This document shows positions 2,399 to 62,048 of a stretch of 64,000 nucleotides of DNA, piece after piece. A model generated the notes under the pieces. It had not been told where the DNA came from, did not search any database, and saw only the letters and a list, made by a program, of their open reading frames with translations. Position 1 is the stretch's first letter, and the number at the start of each line of letters is the position of its first letter. Source of the DNA: Bacillus sp. FJAT-29937 (GTDB lineage Bacteria; Bacillota; Bacilli; Bacillales; Cytobacillaceae); assembly GCF_001509555.1 (NCBI RefSeq), contig NZ_LMAS01000006.1, forward strand, positions 202,878 through 266,877, read 5' to 3'. The translations under genes were made by a program, and so were the position numbers.

Positions 2399-2585
2399 CG
2401 AAAAGCGGAAGCGCCTTGACCAGGGGCGACAAGCATAAGGCAAGCAGGCGAGAAGGTTGCACTTTAACCTTCTTGACTGATTGACTTATGACCTCCGACG
2501 TACAGGACGTACTAGTGCCGATGTTGCCACAGGACGTGGCGCTCTTAGTCGGCGAGCCCCTAGGCGCTGGAGCTAGACAATATCG
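2399..2585. repeat. Interspersed repeat-like element with inverted ends
   Basis: About 185 bp in the gap between rsfA and the DUF1450 gene. It begins AAAAGCGGAAGCGCCT and ends AGGCGCTGGAGCTAGACA, so the ends form an imperfect inverted repeat (AGCGCCT / AGGCGCT plus AGGGGC / GCCCCT). Inside are short hairpins around GACGTACAGGACGTAC and TTGCCACAGGACGTGGC. It resembles a non-coding repeat I remember from several Bacillaceae genomes; no transposase frame is present. Only one copy lies in the window, so the repeat nature rests on recall. Confidence 0.55.
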
Positions 2586-6750: not shown

Positions 6751-6766
6751 TTGTCATAGCAGGTAA

Positions 6767-7062
6767 TTTGGACAGGTTTTGATGAAAACTCAGAAAGCTG
6801 TCCAGAAACCGAGCTGATTTGGACAGGTTTAGTAGAAAACTCAGAAAGCTGTCCAGAAACTGAGCTAATTTGGACAGGTTTTGAAGAAAACTCAGAAAGC
6901 TGTCCAGAAACTGAGCTGATTTGGACAGGTTTTGAAGAAAACTCAGAAAGCTGTCCAGAAACCGAGCTGATTTGGACAGGTTTAGTAGAAAACCAGAAAA
7001 GCTGTCCAGAAATCGGGCTAATTTGGACAAGTTTTGGTCAAATCCCCGAAACCTGTCCAACA
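6767..7062. repeat. Tandem array, 51-bp period (GGACAGG class), 6 units
   Basis: The word GGACAGG (last copy GGACAAG) starts at 6770, 6821, 6872, 6923, 6974 and 7025, a spacing of exactly 51 bases each time. Each unit has GGACAGGTTT and, 19-22 bases on, AAAGCTGTCC, making an imperfect palindrome GGACAG/CTGTCC; GAGCTGATTT joins the units. It lies between convergent ywhD and pbpG. Because 51 is a multiple of 3, long frames run through it on both strands; these are repeat translation, not genes. The same class returns at 58050-58345. Confidence 0.95.
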
Positions 7063-10274: not shown

Positions 10275-10352
10275 ATTGGCTGACAAAGCTGGTGAATGGG
10301 CTGACAAATCGAAAATTTGGCTGACAAAACAGGTAAATTGGCTGACAAACTG
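10275..10352. repeat. Short tandem array, about 21-bp period (TTGGCTGACAAA)
   Basis: GGCTGACAAA occurs four times; CTGA starts at 10280, 10301, 10321 and 10342 (spacing 21, 20, 21). The intervening bases vary. The same word in reverse complement (TTTGTCAGCCAA) makes the array at 19310-19582. Confidence 0.9.
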
Positions 10353-13681: not shown

Positions 13682-14236
13682 GAAACGCTTACTATGAAAG
13701 GTTCATAACACGCGTTTGGCAGGTACCGCCTGCGAAATGCTTACTATGAAAGGTTCATAACACGCGTTTGGCAGGTACCGCCTGTGAAATGCCACTATGA
13801 AAGGTTCATAACACGCGTTTGGCAGGTACCGCCCGCGAAATGCCCACTATGAAAGGCTTATAACACGCGTTTGGCAGGTACCGCCCGCGAAACGCTTACT
13901 ATGAAAGGTTCATGATATGCGTTTGGCAGGTACCGCCTGTGAAATGCCCACTATGAAAGGTTCATAACACGCGTTTGGCAGGTACCGCCCGCGAAATGCC
14001 CACTATGAAAGGTTCATAACACGCGTTTGGCAGATTCCGCCCGCAAAACGCCCACTATGAAGGGTTCATACCTCGCGTTTGGAAGGTTCCGCGCGCGAAA
14101 TGCCCACTATGAAGGGTTCATAACACGCGTTTGGCAGGTACCGCCCGCAAAACACCCACTATGAGGGGTTCATGATATGCGTTTGGCAGGTACCGTCCGT
14201 AAAACGCCCACTATGAAAGGTTCATAACACGCGTTC
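13682..14236. repeat. Tandem array, 52-bp period (class A palindrome), 11 units
   Basis: The word ACTATGA starts at 13691, 13743, 13794, 13846, 13898, 13950, 14002, 14054, 14106, 14158 and 14210: nine steps of 52 and one of 51. Each unit has a palindrome (AAATGC or AAACGC, ACTATGAA, AGG, TTCATA, ACAC, GCGTTT) and a spacer GGCAGGTACCGCCTGCG that is itself palindromic around GGTACC. Copies differ by a few substitutions with hardly any length change. It lies between convergent argS and the cardiolipin synthase gene. No long coding frame runs through it. Confidence 0.97.
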
Positions 14237-14286
14237 GCGAGAGTCACCTCCTAAATCGCTCCCACTACTGGCTCATAGCCCGGCAA

Positions 14287-19309: not shown

Positions 19310-19582
19310 CTAACTTTGCATGCTAGTCAGCCGATTTACTTGCTTATCAGGTGGAATCTGACTTTTTATCAGTTAATTTAGCCAGTTTATCAGTGGAATG
19401 TGTTTTTATCAGCCAATTTAGCTTATTTATTTGCGGAATCTTTTTGTTTATTAGCCGCTTAGGCAATTTATCAGCCAAATATATCGGTTTGCCAGCCAAT
19501 TCGTGCTATTTATCAGCCAAATACACCGGCTTGTCAGCCAATTTAGCCAGTTTATCAGCCAATTGAAAAATTTGTCAGTAAA
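19310..19582. repeat. Tandem array, about 21-bp period (TTATCAGCCAA), about 13 units
   Basis: TCAG (or a one-base variant) recurs at 19327, 19347, 19369, 19390, 19409, 19430, 19451, 19471, 19492, 19513, 19534, 19555 and 19575, steps of 19-22 and mostly 21. The best conserved unit is TTTATCAGCCAATTTAGCC. This is the reverse complement class of the short array before speB. A 71-residue frame through it (LSAN/LSAKY repeats) is repeat translation and not a gene. It fills most of the gap between the thiolase and the hydroxyacyl-CoA dehydrogenase genes. Confidence 0.92.
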
Positions 19583-21679: not shown

Positions 21680-22077
21680 TCACTTAAAACACATAATTCA
21701 TAGTGAGTGTTTTGAAAGGAACTCATCCAAAACGCTCGTCATGACTGCTTCATAGTGAGTGTTTTGAAAAGGACTTATCCAAAACGCTCGTCATGACCGC
21801 TTCATAGTGAGTGTTTTGAAAGGAACTCATCCAAAACGCTCGTCATGACCGGTTCATAGTGAGTGTTTTGAAAGGAACTCATCCAAAACGCTCGTCAAGG
21901 CCGCTTCATAGTGAGTGTTTTAAAAGGGTCTCATCCAAAACGCTCGTCATGACCGCTTCATAGTGCGTGTTTTGAAAGGAACTTATACAAAACTCTTGTC
22001 ATGATCGCTTTATAGTGCGTGTTTTGAGAGGCATCCACCAATAAAGCTAACCATGACGCTTCATAAGTGTTAATTTT
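21680..22077. repeat. Tandem array, 52-bp period (class A palindrome), 8 units
   Basis: CATAGTGAG (variants TATAGTGCG, CATAAGTG) starts at 21699, 21751, 21803, 21855, 21907, 21959, 22011 and 22062: six steps of 52 and a last step of 51. Each unit: AAAACGCTCG, TCATGA, CCGC, TTCATAGTGAG, TGTTTT, then the array-specific spacer GAAAGGAACTCATCC. It sits between the two co-directional acyl-CoA dehydrogenase genes. Confidence 0.96.
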
Positions 22078-30364: not shown

Positions 30365-30880
30365 GAAATACTTTAGCTATGGAGTGGTCATGGTTCGTGT
30401 TTTGCAGGAGTAGGGGGGGAAACGGTAACTATAGAGAGTTCATGGAGCGTGTTTTGGAAGGGGACGAGTAGAAACGATAACTATGGAGAGTTTATGGAGC
30501 GTGTTTTGCAGGGGAAGAGTTGAAAACGGTAACTATAGAGAGTTCATGGAGCTCGTTTTGGAGGGGGAGGTGTAGAAACGGTAACTAAGGAGAGTTCATG
30601 GAGCGTGTTTTGGAGGAGAAGGAGTGAAAACGGTAACTATAGAAAGTTCATAGAGCTCGTTTTGTAGTAGAAGTGATAAAAACGGTAACTAAGGAGAGTT
30701 TATAGAGCGTGTTTAGCGGGAGTAAGGGTAAAAACGGTAACTATGAATAGTTTATGGAGCTAGTTTTGAATGATTAGGTGTAAAAACAATAACTATGAAG
30801 AGTTCATAGAGCTCGTTATGAAGGAACATATGTGAAAACGATAGCCATGAAAGGCTCATGGCCCCTATCTATCCTAAAAG
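30365..30880. repeat. Tandem array, 52-bp period (class A palindrome), 10 units
   Basis: The C (or T) of TTCATGGAGC and its variants falls at 30389, 30441, 30493, 30545, 30597, 30649, 30701, 30753, 30805 and 30857: every step is exactly 52 bases. Units: AAAACGGTAACTAT, AGAGAG, TTCATGGAGC(G/T)CGTTTT, then a purine-rich spacer (GGAGGGGAAGGTG-like) that drifts more than in other arrays. It lies between convergent pyrG and ywjG. Confidence 0.95.
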
Positions 30881-38676: not shown

Positions 38677-38772
38677 AATTCCAGTGTGTTTTAGATTATA
38701 CGGTCAGCTTCATTTGACCCGTAATATATAACTCTGTCTCAGTATGATTCAGGGCGGAAGGAGATGAAAAGA

Positions 38773-46049: not shown

Positions 46050-46330
46050 TGTTCTTATAGTGAGTGTTTTGGTCAATGAAAGAGGAAAACGCGAGTTATG
46101 AATGGTTCATAGTACTCGTTTTGGTGAATGAAAGAGCAAAACGCGAGTTATGAAGGGTTCATAGTAAGTGTTTTAGTTAATGAAAGAGGAAAACGCGAGT
46201 TATGGAGAGTTCATAGTACTCGTTTTAGTCAATGAAAGAGGAAAATGCGACTTATGAATGGCTCATAGTAATCGTTTAGATCAATCACAATAAAAAAACG
46301 CGACTCATGAATAATCCACAGCAAGCATTT
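46050..46330. repeat. Tandem array, 52-bp period (class A palindrome), 5-6 units
   Basis: The base before ATAG in TTCATAG falls at 46056, 46108, 46160, 46212 and 46264 (all steps 52), with a decayed copy near 46316. The palindrome is clearest here: AAAACGCGAGT, TATGAA, TGG, TTCATAGTACTCGTTTT. Array-specific spacer: GGTCAATGAAAGAGG. It lies between convergent prmC and the histidine kinase. Confidence 0.95.
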
Positions 46331-46396: not shown

Positions 46397-49267
46397 TCAA
46401 GTATTCTGTTCCTCAGGAACTAAAATTTGTCCCCTTTTACCGGTTTTCAGCAGGGTTTGGTGGATTGCTTCTGATAGCTCGCTGGGTTTATATGGTTTAA
46501 TGAAGAAGTCATTGGCTCCGAGGGATAATCCCTTCTCCTTCTCATCCAAGGCAGTTGAGATGATAATTGGGATATTTTTCAGGCGCTCGCTTTCCTTCAT
46601 TTTTCTCATAATGGTCCAGCCGTCGATTTGTTCCTCCAGCAGAATATCGAGCACGATGGCGTCCGGTGTTTCCTTCTGAAAATAATCCAGTGCTTCTTCA
46701 CCCTTTGCAAAGCATGTTACATGGAACCCGCTTTCGGTTAATTCATTTTGAATAAGCTCAGACAGGCTTTGGTCGTCCTCAACTACCGTGACGTTGAAAT
46801 CGGCAGCCGGCATGTTAGGTAAATCGGTCGTTCCTACCGGCTTTGCATTCCCGACTGTAGGGAAGGAGAGGCTGAAGGTACTTCCTTTGCCATAGTGGGA
46901 GGTGACCTTGACCGCCCCATTATGGGCTTTCATAATTTCTTGAACAATAGCCAATCCCAAGCCAGTCCCGCCAATCGTTCTCCGATCCGAATTATCGACC
47001 CGGAAAAATTTAATAAATAATTTATCCAGTGCATCCGCTGGGATCCCCAAACCATGGTCCGTAATATCGACCTTGAGACTGGAGCCCTCCCCGTAAACAT
47101 CAATTTTAATATCTCCGCCCTTAGGGGAATATTTAATGGCATTGTTAATAAGGTTCGTAAAAACATGCTCCATTTTCGAACGGTCGCCGTTCACTAAATC
47201 ATTTTCAACAAACGGATGAAGCTCAATCCGATGAAGATCGGTTTGAACTTGCTGCTTTTCAATGACCTTTTCAATAATCGGCACGAGCTTTATGAATTTC
47301 TTTTCATACGTTTGTTTGCCGGATTCCATCCGTTGGACATCTAAAAAATCGTTAATTAACGCAGTCAAGCGTTTAGCCTCATTTAAAATCGTTGTTAAAT
47401 ATTTCGTTTGCTTTTCCGCCTTCAGCTCCCGATTCAGCATTAATTCGGTAAAGCCTAGAATACTGGCTAATGGCGTTCGCAATTCATGGCTGACGGTGCT
47501 GACAAACTCTGATTTCATCTGGTCTACTTCAAATTCCTTTGTCATGTCGCGATGAACGATGACCGTGCCGAAACGTTCCTCTCCATCATATAGACCTTCC
47601 AAATACATCTTAATAACCTGCTGGGAGTTTTTCATTTTATACGTAAAAGAGTGCTCTTCCTCTGAACGATTGTTAAGGGCATCTGTCAAAAATGCGATAA
47701 ATTCATGCTCATCCTCGACAAACTCCTTCATCACATCTGTCCATTCGTACCAAGAAAGGCCAATGAGACTAAGGTTTTTCTCACGGGGGAAAAGCTCACA
47801 TAATTGATTATTCACTTGAAGGATTTTCCCGTCCGAATCAATTAGCTGGATGCCTTCTTTTACCGTATCCATAATATTTTGGTTTAATTTGCGACTTTCC
47901 TCAGATGACTCATAAAGTCTAATTTTTTCAAGAGAGATTCCGATTTGCTTAGACAAAGCCTCGTATTCTTCCATTTGATTTGGCTGAAAATGCCCCCCGA
48001 ACCGGCTAAATACCATAATCGCCACAACCTCATTTTCTGAGGAGAGAATAGGCATATACAAATCATGTCCATACGAAACCGCCGTATGATAGCCTTTTTC
48101 CTCAGGCTGTAGTTCACGCCTAATTGTGAAGACCTGTTTCGTTTTCTTAAGTCGTTCATGTAAGCCATTATCGATGTATTGCTTAAACTGCCGGGTGCCA
48201 GCTTCAGAAATTCCGAAAGAAGCAGAGGCATCTTCGTTCAGCATGACAATCATTCCACTGTCAGCATCAAGAACCTCGCACATATTCGTGACAATGCTTT
48301 CCAACACTTCTTGTTTCTCAAGAGAATTCGAAATGCTGTTTGTCAGCATGTTTCTTCTTTCTAGCTTTCTTTCATTTTCCTGCACAGCCGAAAGCATCGA
48401 TTCCAGTTCAAGCTGCTGTGCCTGCAGCTCGTCCTGCTGGGCCATAAGCTCTTCATTTTGAGCAAGCAAGTCCTGTTCATTTTCCTGTATACTCTTAATC
48501 ATTTTTCGAAAAGCAACGGACAGCGCACCAAGTTCATCATCCCGTTTTTCTTCTACTTCAATGACCGCTTCCTTCCCAAGGGCAATTTCATTCGCCGCTT
48601 TGGAAAATTGAGCAAGCGGCTGGCCAACTTTTTTGACCATGACCCTGATGAAGAGGAATAGGATGAAAAGCAGTGCCAGAAAAAGAATGATAAAAACCGA
48701 CTGAATCAATGACTGCTTTTCCGTTAATTCAGTGGCTTTTGCATTTAAGTTCTTCTGCACACTTTTTAAATAAGTTTTAGAATAGACTTGAAAGTTCTTT
48801 ATCTTTTGGAATCCGATAGATTGGACGATTTGAATGATTTCATCTTTTCGCCCGGCTTCAATATAGGAGAACGTTTCAGGCAATCTTTCGATGAAATAAT
48901 AATCGATCATTTCCCTAAGTTCCCTGGCATACGCTTTATCCTCTTGCGTCACGGCAACGGCTTCCAGCTGCTTATGCAACTCATTTAGCCTTGGCAATTG
49001 GGCCAAAGCCTCTTGCTTAAACTCTTCATTTTCAAAAGCAATGTAGCTGCGGGCATCCAAAACGGCAAGATTAAAGGATTCATCAATTTCCGCCAAAAGC
49101 CCTTGCTTTTCAACAAGCACCTGCCGCTCCTTAAAATAAGTTTCATTTATTTGCTTATGGGTCAAAAATAAACTCGAAGCAATCCCGATAAAAAGAAGGG
49201 TAAACAAGCTGATGAGGGTAACAAATTGCCTGGAAAGGCTCCTTCTTACATATTGATTAAGCTTCAC
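46397..49267 (-). CDS. Hybrid sensor histidine kinase (CHASE3-like, HAMP, GAF, PAS, HisKA, HATPase, REC)
   Basis: 956 residues. TM1 about 17-36, an extracellular CHASE3-like helical domain (about 37-185), TM2 about 188-208, HAMP 208-262, a Gln/Glu-rich coiled coil to 310, GAF about 318-450, PAS 460-578, HisKA with His594 in TVSHELRTPL, HATPase with NLINNAIKYSP and TIGGTGLGLAIVQEI, and a C-terminal receiver with Asp874 (IVLDILLEEQIDG) and Lys in FFIKPYKP. GTG 49267 overlaps the stop of the receiver gene by 4 bases (GTGA). It probably sends phosphate through its own receiver to the Hpt of the GGDEF protein. Not at this locus in B. subtilis. Confidence 0.92.
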   Translation of the reverse strand: MKLNQYVRRSLSRQFVTLISLFTLLFIGIASSLFLTHKQINETYFKERQVLVEKQGLLAEIDESFNLAVLDARSYIAFENEEFKQEALAQLPRLNELHKQLEAVAVTQEDKAYARELREMIDYYFIERLPETFSYIEAGRKDEIIQIVQSIGFQKIKNFQVYSKTYLKSVQKNLNAKATELTEKQSLIQSVFIILFLALLFILFLFIRVMVKKVGQPLAQFSKAANEIALGKEAVIEVEEKRDDELGALSVAFRKMIKSIQENEQDLLAQNEELMAQQDELQAQQLELESMLSAVQENERKLERRNMLTNSISNSLEKQEVLESIVTNMCEVLDADSGMIVMLNEDASASFGISEAGTRQFKQYIDNGLHERLKKTKQVFTIRRELQPEEKGYHTAVSYGHDLYMPILSSENEVVAIMVFSRFGGHFQPNQMEEYEALSKQIGISLEKIRLYESSEESRKLNQNIMDTVKEGIQLIDSDGKILQVNNQLCELFPREKNLSLIGLSWYEWTDVMKEFVEDEHEFIAFLTDALNNRSEEEHSFTYKMKNSQQVIKMYLEGLYDGEERFGTVIVHRDMTKEFEVDQMKSEFVSTVSHELRTPLASILGFTELMLNRELKAEKQTKYLTTILNEAKRLTALINDFLDVQRMESGKQTYEKKFIKLVPIIEKVIEKQQVQTDLHRIELHPFVENDLVNGDRSKMEHVFTNLINNAIKYSPKGGDIKIDVYGEGSSLKVDITDHGLGIPADALDKLFIKFFRVDNSDRRTIGGTGLGLAIVQEIMKAHNGAVKVTSHYGKGSTFSLSFPTVGNAKPVGTTDLPNMPAADFNVTVVEDDQSLSELIQNELTESGFHVTCFAKGEEALDYFQKETPDAIVLDILLEEQIDGWTIMRKMKESERLKNIPIIISTALDEKEKGLSLGANDFFIKPYKPSELSEAIHQTLLKTGKRGQILVPEEQNT

Positions 49268-49626
49268 CTTAGAATCTCCCCAACCTTATTCAAAAGATGG
49301 AGGGGGCTGAACGGCTTGGCCATAAAGTAGTCTGCCCCAGCTGCTAATACACGGTCCTGTTCATACTGCTGGCTTTTTGCAGATAGCATCAGAATTTTCA
49401 CATGCTGATTTTCGGCATTAGACCGGATTTTTTCAATAACCTCTAATCCTGAAAGACCTGGCATCATGTAATCAACGATGATTAAGTCATAGTTATTTTG
49501 GTAAAATAAATCCAATGCCTCTTGGCCATCAGCGGCTTCGTCTATTTCGAAATCTTCATCCTCAAACGTATCCACAATCAGCATTCGTAAAATCTCTTCA
49601 TCTTCTGCAAGCAAAATTCTTTTCAT
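49264..49626 (-). CDS. Stand-alone receiver-domain response regulator
   Basis: 120 residues, a CheY-like single receiver: acidic pocket LLAEDEEIL (Glu8-Asp9), Asp52 in LIIVDYMMPGLSG, Ser/Thr switch MLSAKS and Lys in FMAKPFSP. No output domain. ATG 49626 is 7 bases after GGAGG; the frame further upstream lacks a site. It lies between the GGDEF protein (88 bases upstream) and the kinase (overlapping), so it is part of one operon and may shuttle phosphate. Confidence 0.92.
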   Translation of the reverse strand: MKRILLAEDEEILRMLIVDTFEDEDFEIDEAADGQEALDLFYQNNYDLIIVDYMMPGLSGLEVIEKIRSNAENQHVKILMLSAKSQQYEQDRVLAAGADYFMAKPFSPLHLLNKVGEILR

Positions 49627-49714
49627 ATTGAGTCCTCCATACATCACGATGGGTTAGTATTTTGCGGGTTCCCGCATAGCAACGGAAAAGAACAGCGGCC
49701 AAATTCGCCAGCAT

Positions 49715-51334
49715 TTACGATAGTCTTTGGATAAGGCGCTGGATCCTTGCTTCCAATTCCATAATGCTAAAGGGCTTTGTCATATAATCATCCGCCCCAA
49801 GCCTCAGGGCTTCGGCAATATCGCTTTCACTTTTTCGTCCCGTCAGCATGAGGACTGTCATTTCCTTCGCGTTTTTCGCCTGTTTTACCTTTTTCAGCAC
49901 CTCAAGTCCGTCCATGACAGGCATCATGCCATCAAGAATTAAGAAATGGCCGCCTTTTTCTTCAAGTCTATTGGAAGAAAAGAACTTTAAGCCATCCTCA
50001 TACACTTGAATATCTAGTTCAAACTGATCGAAATTCATATGTTGCAATATTTTCATCAGCATCATTCGAATAATGGCATCATCATCAATAACCGAAACAC
50101 GTAAAAGCCTCTTAGCAGGAGTTACCTCAATCTTATTCGCACTTTCCACACGGGCCCGGCCGTTATTCTTCGCCTCATAAAGGGCGGAATCAGCCATTTT
50201 TATGACTGCTGACGTATCCAAATCTGGATCGGTAATCATATATACACCTGCTGAAAAAGAAACAGAAAACTCTTGGCCATTTTCGCTAAAAATTTTACCC
50301 TTAAATTCCTGGATCAGTCTTGTTAGGACATTCTTTGCTTCCAAATCAGTGGTCTGCGGGAATAAAATAATAAACTCTTCCCCGCCAAAACGGAAAACAG
50401 TATCCAGACTTCGGACATTCTCCTTCAAGAACTGGGCAAAAGCAACAAGGACACGATCCCCTGCAATATGACCGTATGTATCATTGACTTTTTTGAAGAA
50501 ATCCAGATCCATCACAGCGAGAGTGAAGCATTTTCCGGTCCTTTTCAGCTCCTTCATGCTCTTTTGCATCGTATCCTGAAGGAATTTACGATTATATACT
50601 TGGGTGAGCTCATCAATGAGGACAGATTGATCGAAAATCTTCTTTCTATCTAAGTGCCGTTCCATCCGTACTAAAAACTCTTCCAAATCAATCGGCTTTT
50701 CAATAAAGTCATCTGCGCCCATTTTATATGCCTGAATTCTAGTCTGCCTGTCATTTTGAATACTGATCATGATCTTCGGGATAAATTTCTTGTTCGAGTG
50801 CCTTTGAATATCTTCCAAAATTTGAAAGCCATTTTTCTTTGGCAAGTTAATATCAATAATGAGGCAATCCGGGCGCATATCAAAATATTGCTCAGTTGCC
50901 TTAAGCGGATCGGTGTTCGCCAGCACCATCCAGCCCCTACTCTCCATCGCATCCTTGAGTAGAATGAGCATCGAAATATCGTCATCAATCAATTGAATAA
51001 GAGGGACGTTTTCATTTCGAGGAATAGCTAGCTTTTCTTCTATCTGGTTAAAATGCTCGTATTCATAGCTAAATTCTATCAATTCATATAAAAAGTCACG
51101 AAGCTCCTGATTAGTCCAAGTCTCGTTTTCCTTAGTAGTAACCTCGTCCATTAGCTTTGTGGCAATCTGATGAAGGCCGCCAAGCTGCAGCGTCCCAGCT
51201 GTTCCCTTAATCGAGTGAAGAAAGCGGAATATTTCTTCATTCGTAAACGTGGCTTCCATGCCATCTTCAAACCATTCTGTCAGCTGCTCCTTTACCTTTT
51301 GGAAAAGAAGATCTTTGTATTTATCTAGATTCAT
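49715..51334 (-). CDS. Hpt-REC-GGDEF-REC signalling protein (probable diguanylate cyclase)
   Basis: 539 residues. Hpt domain with His40 in FLHSIKGTAGTLQLGGL; receiver 1 with Asp161 (LIIDINLPKKNG) and Lys213; GGDEF domain about 240-395 with the GGEEF active site (317-321) and an intact RxxD product-inhibition site (RSLD, 308-311) exactly five residues before it; receiver 2 with Asp468 (LILDGMMPVMDG) and Lys520. Such a protein could take phosphate from the kinase receiver and make c-di-GMP. ATG 51334 follows GAGGTG with a 6-base gap; the frame to 51415 crosses a terminator hairpin and is rejected. Its leader is described separately. Confidence 0.9.
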   Translation of the reverse strand: MNLDKYKDLLFQKVKEQLTEWFEDGMEATFTNEEIFRFLHSIKGTAGTLQLGGLHQIATKLMDEVTTKENETWTNQELRDFLYELIEFSYEYEHFNQIEEKLAIPRNENVPLIQLIDDDISMLILLKDAMESRGWMVLANTDPLKATEQYFDMRPDCLIIDINLPKKNGFQILEDIQRHSNKKFIPKIMISIQNDRQTRIQAYKMGADDFIEKPIDLEEFLVRMERHLDRKKIFDQSVLIDELTQVYNRKFLQDTMQKSMKELKRTGKCFTLAVMDLDFFKKVNDTYGHIAGDRVLVAFAQFLKENVRSLDTVFRFGGEEFIILFPQTTDLEAKNVLTRLIQEFKGKIFSENGQEFSVSFSAGVYMITDPDLDTSAVIKMADSALYEAKNNGRARVESANKIEVTPAKRLLRVSVIDDDAIIRMMLMKILQHMNFDQFELDIQVYEDGLKFFSSNRLEEKGGHFLILDGMMPVMDGLEVLKKVKQAKNAKEMTVLMLTGRKSESDIAEALRLGADDYMTKPFSIMELEARIQRLIQRLS

Positions 51335-51355
51335 AGTATTCACCTCAATTTGACT

Positions 51356-51446
51356 AAAAAAACCGGCCATACGATGATTGGGCCGGTTTAGTTCGAAAGA
51401 GAGACCTGCAATCACAGTAGGCTGAACGATATATAGATGATTGCAG
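51356..51446 (-). promoter_or_regulatory. Terminator and competing stem in the leader of the GGDEF operon
   Basis: On the minus strand: CTGCAATCA (51446-51438) pairs with TGATTGCAG (51414-51406). Then follows an intrinsic terminator, AAACCGGCC (51389-51381) with GGCCGGTTT (51368-51360), then a T run (to 51356), only about 21 bases before the start codon. CAATCATC occurs twice, in the 5' arm of the first stem and in the terminator loop (51380-51373), so TGATTG could pair with either. No other gene ends here. I do not recognise a known riboswitch family. Confidence 0.6.
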
Positions 51447-55029: not shown

Positions 55030-55555
55030 TAAAGTAAGCGTTTTGGGGTTTCTGCATGGAAAAGGAGTACTATGAACGAGTCATGGTGAGCGTTTCGGGG
55101 TTTCTGCTTGAAAACGAGTGTTATGAACGAGTCATGGTGAGCGTTTTGGGGTTTCTGCATGGAAAAGGAGTACTATGAACGAGTCATAGTGAGCGTTTTG
55201 GGGTTTCTGCATGGAAAAGGAGTGCTATGAACGAGTCATAGTGAGCGTTTTGAGGTTTCTGCATGGAAAAGGAGTGTTATGAATGAGTCATGGTGAGCGT
55301 TTTGGGGTTTCTGCATGGAAAAGGAGTGCTATGAACGAGTCATAGTGAGCGTTTTGGGGTTTCACCTTGGAATAGGAGTGTTATGAACGAGTCATAGTGA
55401 GCATTTTGAGGTTTCTGCATGGAAAAGGAGTGTTATGAATGAGTCATGGTGAGCGTTTCGGGGTTTCTGCTTGAAAAACGAGTGTTATGAACGAGTCATG
55501 GTGAGCGTTTTGAAGCTTCTCCTCGGAAAATGATTGCCAGTAAGCGTTTGGAAGG
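55030..55555. repeat. Tandem array, 52-bp period (class A palindrome), about 10 units
   Basis: The C of TCATGGTGAG/TCATAGTGAG lies at 55082, 55133, 55185, 55237, 55289, 55341, 55393, 55445 and 55497: one step of 51 and seven of 52, with partial units at both ends. Unit: AAAAGGAGTACTATGA, ACGAG, TCATGGTGAGCGTTTT, then the array-specific spacer GGGGTTTCTGCATGG. It lies between co-directional mntP and ywlE. Confidence 0.97.
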
Positions 55556-55682
55556 GTAAAGTCACAAAACGCTAACAAAGCCGGTTCAATGTAAGGTTTT
55601 TCTAATCTTTTAAAAATTTTCACATTCAATACTATTGAATCTGGGGATTTTGGCTTATAATGGGATGAAAGGAGGCGCAGCT

Positions 55683-58034: not shown

Positions 58035-58049
58035 GGTGAAGCTTCCGGT

Positions 58050-58345
58050 TATCGGACAGGTTTTCGGGAAAACTTTGAAACCTGTCCGGATTCCTTGATT
58101 TGTTGGACAGGTTTTCGGAAAATCATAGAAAGTTGTCCATGAAACCCGATTTATTGGACAGGTTTTCGGAAAATCATAGAAAGTTGTCCATGAAACCCGA
58201 TTTATTGGACAGGTTCTTGGAAAAACGCAGAAAGCTGTCCATGAAACTCGATTTATTGGACAGGTTTTCGGAAAAACGCAGAAAGCTGTCCGTGAAACTC
58301 AATTTATTGGACAGGTTCTCTAGAAACACGCTGAACCTGTCCAAA
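58050..58345. repeat. Tandem array, 51-bp period (GGACAGG class), 6 units
   Basis: GGACAGG starts at 58054, 58105, 58156, 58207, 58258 and 58309, exactly 51 bases each. Unit: GGACAGGTTTTCGGAAAA, ATCATAG or ACGCAG, AAAG(T/C)TGTCC, ATGAAACCCGATTTATT. The first unit is the most symmetric (GGACAGGTTTTC...GAAACCTGTCC). The 100-residue frame through it (LLDRFSEN repeats, starting 58100) is repeat translation, not a gene. Same class as at 6767-7062. Confidence 0.96.
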
Positions 58346-60484: not shown

Positions 60485-60632
60485 TTTTTCAGTCCATTAG
60501 GATAAGTTGTCAGGTAGATTCGCTGTGTTTTGGCAAAATAGTAGCTAGAATAGTTACATTATATGGAAAATGTAAGGTTATCAAGACTGTTTCCCTGTTT
60601 TATCAGCCGATTCATACAGTTTGTCAGCCAAT
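60485..60632. repeat. Weak 21-bp-spaced TCAG motifs (remnant of the TCAGCCAA class)
   Basis: TCAG at 60489 and 60510 (step 21), and TCAGCC at 60603 and 60624 (step 21, the second TTGTCAGCCAATT). This looks like a decayed or starting array of the class seen at 19310-19582. The rest of the 490-base glyA-upp gap shows no other feature I can name. Confidence 0.5.
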
Positions 60633-60890
60633 TTCATAAATCTGCTAATCCCCAATTGATTCCTCCACACATTATGAAGATTCCATAACAATTTTAAATC
60701 AAAGTTGCCGTGAGAAAAGTTTTTCTGTAAAATTAGACGAAGTGCAAGATGAAGAAAAATGTCGAAGGTAGAATAGCTTCCTTATAGTTGCTAACCCTAT
60801 TGAAGAAATGGAAAGATTTTTTTGAGAGGGCAGAAGGAAGATTCTTCATTAATAGGAGCATGTCTAAAATAGAAAAGGAGAGATTTTTAT

Positions 60891-61730: not shown

Positions 61731-61774
61731 TTCCTTGAGTTGATTTTTGAAAAAATTAGAATAGGATCCCTCAA

Positions 61775-62048
61775 CATAAATGGGTTATAGTTAGCGTTTT
61801 AGAGGAGTTGTGGCAGAAATGCTGAATATGAGCGGGTCATGGAACGCATTTTTGAAAAGATGAAGGAGAAACACTCACTATGAAAGGTTCATGGAACGCA
61901 TTTCGGAGAAGTTGAAGTAGAAACGCGAACTATGAAAGGTTCATGATAAGCATTTTAGAGAAGTTGAAGCAGAAACGAGAACTATGAGTGGTTCATGGTA
62001 CGTGTTTTTGAAAAAATGAATTAAAAACACTCACTATGAAAGTAACCG
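61775..62048. repeat. Tandem array, 52-bp period (class A palindrome), 5 units
   Basis: The C of TTCATGG (and variants) lies at 61838, 61890, 61942 and 61994, with a decayed copy at about 61786: every step is 52. Units: AAACGCGAACTATGAA, AGG, TTCATGATAAGCATTTT, then the array-specific spacer AGAGAAGTTGAAGTAG. It lies in the upp-vpr gap. Confidence 0.93.

Follow-up and report, generated by a model that had tools for sequence, protein, structure and literature searches.

The window, a stretch of 64,000 nucleotides from Bacillus sp. FJAT-29937 (assembly of 4.55 Mb with a listed contamination of 9.28%, called G000 for simplicity), has a gene order consistent with that of G061 and other genomes. 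Those of the nearest IcmF relatives that bear a name are Cytobacillus, which suggests a Cytobacillus-like organism. All 20 flank genes examined belong to ordinary families, e.g. argS, pyrG, acyl-CoA dehydrogenases and uracil phosphoribosyltransferase; no rep or par gene was found beside the arrays among these 20, and there are no tRNAs in the window. An Rfam Bacillaceae-1 RNA (2499-2564, minus strand) and an L31 ribosomal protein leader (Rfam; 38732-38763, plus strand) are also present. Scoring of every position against AACGnnnACTATGAAnnnTTCATAGTnnnCGTT yielded 46 palindrome units in six arrays of one family, named here after its CTATGAA core; two arrays of a second palindromic family and two direct-repeat arrays lie in other gaps:

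6766..7059, no strand: 51-bp array, second family GGACAGGTTT-N14-AAAGCTGTCC; 6 units, 5 of 5 steps of 51 bp
10275..10349, no strand: 21-bp direct-repeat array, motif ATTGGCTGAYAAA; between spermidine-synthase and arginase-family genes
13682..14237, no strand: 52-bp array, CTATGAA palindrome family; 11 units; between argS (+) and a phospholipase-D-domain (cardiolipin-synthase-type) gene (-)
19327..19564, no strand: 20-21/40-42-bp direct-repeat array, motif TTTATCAGCCAATT; between thiolase and 3-hydroxyacyl-CoA dehydrogenase genes
21680..22077, no strand: 52-bp array, CTATGAA family, left arm TCATGA; 6 scored units and degenerate ends; between acyl-CoA dehydrogenase genes (+,+)
30365..30880, no strand: 52-bp array, CTATGAA family; 10 units; between CTP synthase pyrG (+) and a DUF2529 gene (-)
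46050..46330, no strand: 52-bp array, CTATGAA family; 5 units; between a PrmC-domain methyltransferase gene (+) and a hybrid histidine kinase gene (-)
55030..55600, no strand: 52-bp array, CTATGAA family; 9 units, right edge degenerate
58049..58343, no strand: 51-bp array, GGACAG family (GGACAGGTTT-N14-AAAGCTGTCC); 6 units, 5 of 5 steps of 51 bp
61760..62048, no strand: 52-bp array, CTATGAA family; 5 units; subtilase gene downstream

The first-pass annotation of this DNA had described six intergenic arrays sharing one palindrome, all of which were recovered at about the positions it gave; it had overlooked the two 51-bp arrays (6766-7059 and 58049-58343) and the 20-21/40-bp arrays (10275-10349 and 19327-19564). 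Within the six arrays, 37 of the 40 steps between units measure 52 bp, two measure 51 bp and one 53 bp. The earlier count of about 40 in 43 steps at 52 bp and the others at 51 bp therefore stands in its main part and lacked the 53-bp step. At the degenerate right edge of the 55030 array (approximately 55568-55600) another core, TTCAATGT, is present out of register. A remnant of TTTATCAGCCAATT-type direct repeats was seen near 60597-60635. The 46050 array is adjoined by a block (46397-51415) of the hybrid histidine kinase and two further genes, with a 74-80% match in G058 and no comparable match in G061, G029 and G047.

The core CTATGAAnnnTTCATAG occurs 260 times in the genome at up to two mismatches, as against 21 occurrences of a reversed control pattern. 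A chain search that accepted steps of 46-58 and 98-110 bp was applied to 733,733 bases of G000, namely the window and 34 stretches (14 picked around matches and 20 taken blind), and identified 217 units in 29 arrays. The array at 21680-22077, with its diverged left arm, is a thirtieth and stands outside the 29 of the chain search. The 188 steps across the 29 arrays were 52 bp in 176 cases, 51 bp in five, 53 bp in four, 103 bp in one and 104 bp in two, so the fixed step reported from the window extends to the genome and periods elsewhere are not scattered. Solitary palindromes outside arrays are almost absent: one weak case (7 of 26 positions mismatched) was detected in the 733,733 bases by a scan that still weaker copies would escape, and its 18 other matches comprised six units of the thirtieth array and 12 copies of the inner core alone. 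Further 52-bp families of this genome were seen at L030:13395-13640, L039:12607-12809, L022:18955-19261 and L045:16925-17246 (TGATGCCCG...; TTCATTTACC...AAAAGTC...).

Each unit of the CTATGAA family consists of a 37-bp core common to the arrays and a 15-bp spacer; the spacers have the same length in all arrays but show no sequence relationship from one array to another. In a profile with one vote per array, conservation peaks at positions -16, -5.5, +5.5 and +16 around the dyad, with about 1-1.4 bits at the peaks and 0-0.3 bits (mostly below 0.2) in the 15 spacer columns. Within arrays, the majority letter reaches approximately 0.75-0.85 in the spacers and 0.93-0.99 at the four core peaks. The CTATGAA core is preceded by an A-run and succeeded by a T-run. 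Conservation in the core has a period of 10.6 bp, which was matched by none of 5,000 column shuffles, and the strongest period of the whole unit is 11.1 bp. Since the peaks lie one turn apart and the +16 peak is followed at 20 bp, or two turns, by the first peak of the next unit, the 52-bp unit corresponds to five turns, so that a conserved contact would be offered in every turn but one in five, all on one helix face. At short range, the contrast between motif and spacer is weak: of the 15 spacer positions, 12, 14 and 10 are identical in three arrays that G000 and G061 have in common, against 29, 30 and 25 of 33 core positions, and the spacers have diverged little more than the cores. The unit length in these three arrays stays at 52 bp (53 bp in one).

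Units differ from their own array consensus at 1,485 of 11,284 positions, and in the spacers alone at 661 of 3,255. As a control, alignments of 27 orthologous, array-free regions of ordinary intergenic DNA between G000 and G061 gave 82 indels to 751 substitutions. At this ratio, between 72 (from the 661 spacer substitutions) and 162 (from all 1,485) length changes are expected, as compared to about 10 observed in 188 steps. Indels in the CTATGAA arrays are thus depleted approximately 7- to 16-fold relative to substitutions, a comparison which the first-pass annotation had proposed when it argued for either selection on spacing or very recent homogenisation. The former is supported by the indel depletion and by the unrelated spacers of equal length. 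The latter holds locally, within arrays; taken alone it does not fit, as spacers differ between sites and vary within arrays.

Ordinary minisatellites, i.e. arrays produced by slippage or unequal recombination and recently homogenised, their fixed period being inherited from one ancestral unit, appear an unlikely explanation. Such an origin fits the similarity of units within arrays (TRF matches of 76-90% in the six arrays of the window), the degenerate edges of CTATGAA arrays, the differing unit numbers of orthologous arrays and the small divergence of spacers relative to cores in the arrays shared with G061; some arrays of other families (L080, L257 and L276) are nearly uniform throughout, with little motif/spacer contrast, which would also be in line with it. 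It fails to account for 29 arrays with unrelated spacers of equal length, for the indel depletion, for the conserved motif against a near-random spacer that is found in several 20-21-bp arrays as well, and for the convergence of many sequence groups on 51-53 bp. The arrays are like minisatellites or VNTRs in being tandem, variable in copy number between species and locally homogenised, and differ from them in the few period values shared by different sequences and in the conservation of motif and spacing.

The majority of non-coding tandem arrays in blind samples have a period of 51-53, 20-21 or 41-42 bp. In 40 stretches of 20 kb from 20 genomes of the family (800 kb, placed at set coordinates and not at random), 25 non-coding arrays of period 15-60 were found, of which 14 have a period of 51-53 and three of 20-21, and 20 have periods close to multiples of 10.4 (p = 1e-10, which, like the blind counts in general, overstates the case since related species are not independent). 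The corresponding numbers for 400 blind kb of G000 were 13 arrays, nine at 51-53, two at 20-21 and 11 near a multiple. In 80 loci around icmF in Bacillales (1.79 Mb), the 52 non-coding arrays included 28 at 20-21 and four at 52 bp; 36 were near a multiple and 16 misfit the values used. Periods of 20, 21, 31, 32, 41, 42, 51, 52 and 53 were accepted as near multiples, and 40, which occurs six times in the 80 loci, was excluded. Coding arrays, as masked by a simple ORF rule, obey the same rule in 3 of 6 (blind family sample), 0 of 3 (G000) and 18 of 51 cases (80 loci), 14 of the last 18 having a period of 21, a codon multiple. Three non-coding arrays with periods of 100, 100 and 101 were found in 300 kb of E. 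coli K-12.

Pooling of all arrays of period 47-57 (n = 100; no coding mask, and including stretches picked for holding arrays) gave 85 at 52 bp, nine at 51, four at 53, one at 50 and one at 48, the latter, a CCAGGnnn repeat, resembling coding sequence. Average linkage at 0.56 identity, with a shuffled maximum of 0.51, divided them into about 36 sequence groups (35-40 at neighbouring cut-offs); because at least four of these have a CTATGAA core and several have GGACA-like arms in common, roughly 30 distinct groups were counted. A mutational ruler, i.e. an enzyme or replication process duplicating steps of about 52 or 21 bp regardless of sequence, would likewise give many different sequences one period. 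We nevertheless regard it as improbable: the period is fixed per family (52 bp in 38 of 38 arrays of the largest cluster, the main CTATGAA cluster; 51 bp in four and 50 bp in one of the five arrays of the GGACAG cluster), and the between-array conservation of motif columns is unexpected from a ruler alone. As 51, 52 and 53 bp are family-specific values, the figure of five turns is approximate. In the GGACAG family the half-sites are spaced, by hand count, at about 28 and 23 bp, distances that are not whole turns.

In the 80 loci, 52-bp arrays were found in Bacillus sp. S/N-304-OC-R1, Mesobacillus, Robertmurraya, Lederbergia and a record labelled Chryseobacterium sp. ISL-80, and 20-21-bp arrays reach Sporosarcina, Planococcus-type records, Psychrobacillus, Oceanobacillus and Pontibacillus. 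Several direct-repeat arrays conserve 9-15 bp with the rest near random; examples of the motifs are AAAACGGCACATAAA in L072 and CTGGCGTTC in L102, the latter with 24 of 24 steps of 20 bp, and a looser array, L058, has 29 units of 21 bp with 20 of 28 steps of 21. Two arrays outside the 10.4-bp rule were noted, a near-perfect palindromic 28-bp array of eight units (L125:18869-19092) and an 81-bp array (L094:17986-18747). Longer, partly tandem repeats with TRF periods of 123-250 (L072:1658, L064:8878, L098:4621, L093:15940 and L249:10463) belong to a different repeat class with AGAAAAGCG(A/G)AAGCGCC...GACCCGAGGGGCTA-like sequence or its reverse complement, which was seen in several relatives. The GGACAG-type pattern has at least four matches (both strands added) in 16 of the 21 genomes of genus g14, where the matches listed mostly read (T/A)GACAG...CTGTCA.

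The core itself differs between genomes. Among 36 genomes of the same genus, CTATGAA-type matches (up to one mismatch) number 140 in G000, 101 in G031 and 74 in G061, as compared to 0-8 in the others and a single one in G058. Outside the genus, they are enriched in G093 (34), G113 (24), G158 (18), G155 (17) and G130 (11), and the steps in G093 and G113 are mostly 52 bp. Matches of TTCAATGT type (up to three mismatches, both strands added) number 41 in G058, 12 in G061, five in G000 and three in G031, with unaffected genomes and controls at up to about seven; the two patterns are unequal in strictness, and only the contrasts between genomes count. G029 and G030 have 20 and 23 TTCAATGT-type matches, several of which stem from 52-bp arrays with a further core, CATTGGAGCTTTCTTTG. 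Downstream of pyrG, where G000, G061 and G031 have CTATGAA-type arrays, the array of G058 is of TTCAATG type: its inner units carry the TTCAATG core and its last, edge unit is CTATGAAccaTTCATAG in exact 52-bp register. Nearly all detectable cores of G058 are of another type, yet the edge unit keeps what would be the old core under the presumed direction of the change. Genome-wide sites with unrelated spacers are hardly homogenised by mutual recombination, and we infer that the common core change is best explained by a specificity acting in trans.

Turnover was also observed at individual sites. Between G000 and G061, 12 gene gaps have an array in either genome: seven contain the same family in both, two another family or core, and two an array in one genome only; in one further gap, the array of G061 is matched in G000 by a remnant of two units with the same motif. 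As a rule, the family at a site is retained between sister species, but another of equal period is sometimes found in its place. Where some sister species have a different motif at the same site, the period is kept or is also helix-compatible. In the gap downstream of argS, the CTATGAA array of G000 (52 bp) has as its counterparts unrelated arrays of 51 bp (TGTTTCC...) in G061 and of 52 bp (GGACA...TGTCC) in G031; inspection by eye of this site in the listed part of a set of 30 species revealed repeats spaced by about 21 bp (AGCAAATAAA type) in several, degenerate repeats in G058 and no repeats in G029, G030, G047 and G042. The gap upstream of the phosphatase gene at 55635 contains CTATGAA units in G000 and TTCAATG-type units in G061. 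At the two direct-repeat sites (10275-10349 and 19327-19564) the TTTATCAGCCAATT-type motif is the same in G061, and the second site has another motif, TCGCAAACAAA, in G058. The pyrG gene pair was anchored in 37 of the 80 loci; arrays are present in five, with 20-21 bp in four of them, and further 20-21-bp arrays lie 3' of a gene with pyrG-like length and position in Sporosarcina, Psychrobacillus and Pontibacillus.

The arrays prefer particular gaps and gene orientations. In the 80 loci, 30 of 45 arrays occupy gene gaps that can be matched to the window and are concentrated in few of them (sum of squares 105 versus a permuted mean of 62, reached by 5 of 10,000 permutations; kinship inflates this contrast). 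Gaps of the fatty-acid operon that contain arrays in some species have a median length of 35-60 bp where arrays are absent. Longer gaps were found without arrays, such as g24-g25, with a median of 225 bp and arrays in 0 of 59 loci, and g28-g29, with a median of 301 bp and arrays in 0 of 47. The gap before pyrG, which had no array in 57 loci, was disregarded because its anchor covers only part of the upstream gene and the gap is probably partly coding. Divergent gaps are avoided, both in the relatives (0 of 37 arrays versus a background of 108 of 716, p = 0.003) and by the CTATGAA arrays of G000 (2 of 29 versus 52 of 213, p = 0.02). Convergent gaps are enriched in the relatives (13 of 37 versus 63 of 716, p = 2e-5, inflated by kinship and with many cases at the pyrG site) and in the G000 CTATGAA arrays (9 of 29 versus 33 of 213, p = 0.04). 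For all families in the blind G000 set and the window (n = 21), five gaps were convergent, 14 same-strand and two divergent; the arrays are located mainly at gene 3' ends. The polarity of the arrays was opposite to that of the flanking genes in 14 of 18 same-strand gaps, which may reflect strand skew only and was given no weight. On G061:C1, a complete chromosome with dnaA at 334, CTATGAA arrays appear to crowd at 3.76-4.46 Mb and none lies in the first 0.94 Mb, among about 100 of 167 matches listed.

Several motif families per genome, their turnover between sister species and an iteron-like architecture would also be expected of decoy arrays, i.e. chromosomal iteron-like sites that titrate plasmid or phage initiators or partition proteins and change their motif in an arms race. 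We consider such decoys quite unlikely. By blastn, the CTATGAA array matched none of 72,556 plasmid and none of 50,697 phage records, and a GGACAG array none of the plasmid records; no exact pattern match was found in IMG/VR. These collections may cover Bacillaceae elements incompletely. Moreover, decoys would not be expected to favour the same 3' gaps in different species. The resemblance to plasmid systems is one of geometry. The sopC site of the F plasmid comprises 12 tandem 43-bp units, each with an inverted repeat, and sopC-type partition arrays share with those described here the tandem units of near-whole helical turns with a protein-binding palindrome in each (binding being putative here). 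The present case differs in that a single chromosome contains many arrays, of several motif families and with 51-53-bp units, in gaps flanked by housekeeping genes; the 20 window genes examined include no par genes. Iterons of theta-replicating plasmids, in which a short conserved motif is repeated directly every 19-22 bp (two turns), resemble the 20-21-bp arrays in this respect; the latter are chromosomal, occupy many loci 3' of genes and have no Rep gene among the same 20 genes. The queries of the plasmid-record search were the CTATGAA array and a GGACAG array.

Hairpins in RNA or single-stranded DNA, either as tandem bidirectional terminators or as REP-like elements moved by a RAYT transposase, are very improbable. 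The palindromes, the A-run before and T-run after the core and the 3' location are what such elements would show, and, of four single units folded, two are more stable than almost every shuffle (z of -3.4 and -3.7; the others -0.8 and -1.9). Across 30 array consensuses, however, pairing between variable positions of the arms is close to, or lower than, what permutation predicts; since the orientation step may lower this comparison, our claim is limited to the absence of positive covariation. Paired letters amount to 94 in register as against 22-73 when slid by one to three columns, an excess which a palindromic consensus alone produces. In the GGACAG arrays examined, left GGACAGG and right GCTGTCC would form a G-G mismatch, the 20-21-bp arrays consist of direct repeats, and hardly any solitary copies were seen. 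Two arrays were scanned for terminator-like sites (a G+C-rich stem followed by a T run), with none found, and for promoter-like sites, of which there was one, at the edge of the second array (shuffles average 0.7). A structured RNA was rejected in view of the missing significant excess of paired letters over permutation in the 30 consensuses and the missing Rfam match at the arrays. A RAYT/Y1 transposase was likewise rejected as the trans factor: PF01797 has no match in G061, a genome with 74 matches to the palindrome, and in G000 the sole copy is stop-broken. With REP/BIME elements and their RAYT, the arrays share the many-copy intergenic palindromes at 3' ends and between convergent genes, and differ from them in being almost never solitary, in the fixed 52-bp step, in the lack of hairpin covariation and in having no RAYT requirement. 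CRISPR arrays, with their near-identical repeats and unique spacers, were dismissed because here the spacers of one array resemble each other and the cores are variable.

With moderate confidence, we propose that these are phased arrays of protein-binding sites at the DNA level, recognised by a putative, fast-evolving binding protein, and that selection holds the sites on one helix face. Conserved motifs at fixed helical spacing, as expected of such arrays, were found, some arrays of other families being without motif/spacer contrast. In a CTATGAA unit, two 17-bp half-sites (AAAACGnnnACTATGAA) would face each other in inverted orientation across 3 bp, and a dimeric DNA-binding protein would contact the groove twice in each of them. 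One dimer of the cognate protein would then occupy each palindrome, i.e. five helical turns, and neighbouring dimers would align side by side, probably cooperatively. Other families may follow the same rule with other motifs, as inverted pairs at 51-53 bp or direct repeats at 20-21 bp. When the specificity of the protein shifts, the cores would change together genome-wide while frame and period stay, probably through local duplication of better-matching units. As to the role, which is the most speculative part, insulation between transcription units or local chromosome organisation is favoured.

The first-pass annotation knew of no named repeat family with these features, and this is consistent with Rfam, which has no match at the arrays, and with the open-access literature, in which no published description was found; the excerpts of PMC4666352, PMC2267715 and PMC1590033 hold no account of them. 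Unit lengths of mostly 52 bp (about five turns) or 20-21 bp (two turns) with family-specific sequences point to an unrecognised class of putative protein-binding elements, and annotation would miss it because the geometry is conserved and the sequence is not. More tentatively, though we deem it quite possible, Bacillaceae may carry an undescribed class of phased arrays for sequence-specific proteins that coat one face of the DNA, with specificity changing so fast that sister species differ in motif at the same sites while pitch and many positions are kept. Such arrays would be a bacterial counterpart of satellite DNA that co-evolves with its binding protein, and might act as insulator or chromosome organiser or take part in a genetic conflict.

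If this is right, a common part of the intergenic DNA of Bacillaceae (14 arrays of period 51-53 in 800 blind kb, nine in 400 kb of G000) would be a functional element, and a 52-bp array would provide a direct handle on the putative DNA-binding protein. The motif switches between sister species would then be natural cases in which the co-evolution of a binding protein with its chromosome-wide sites may be followed.
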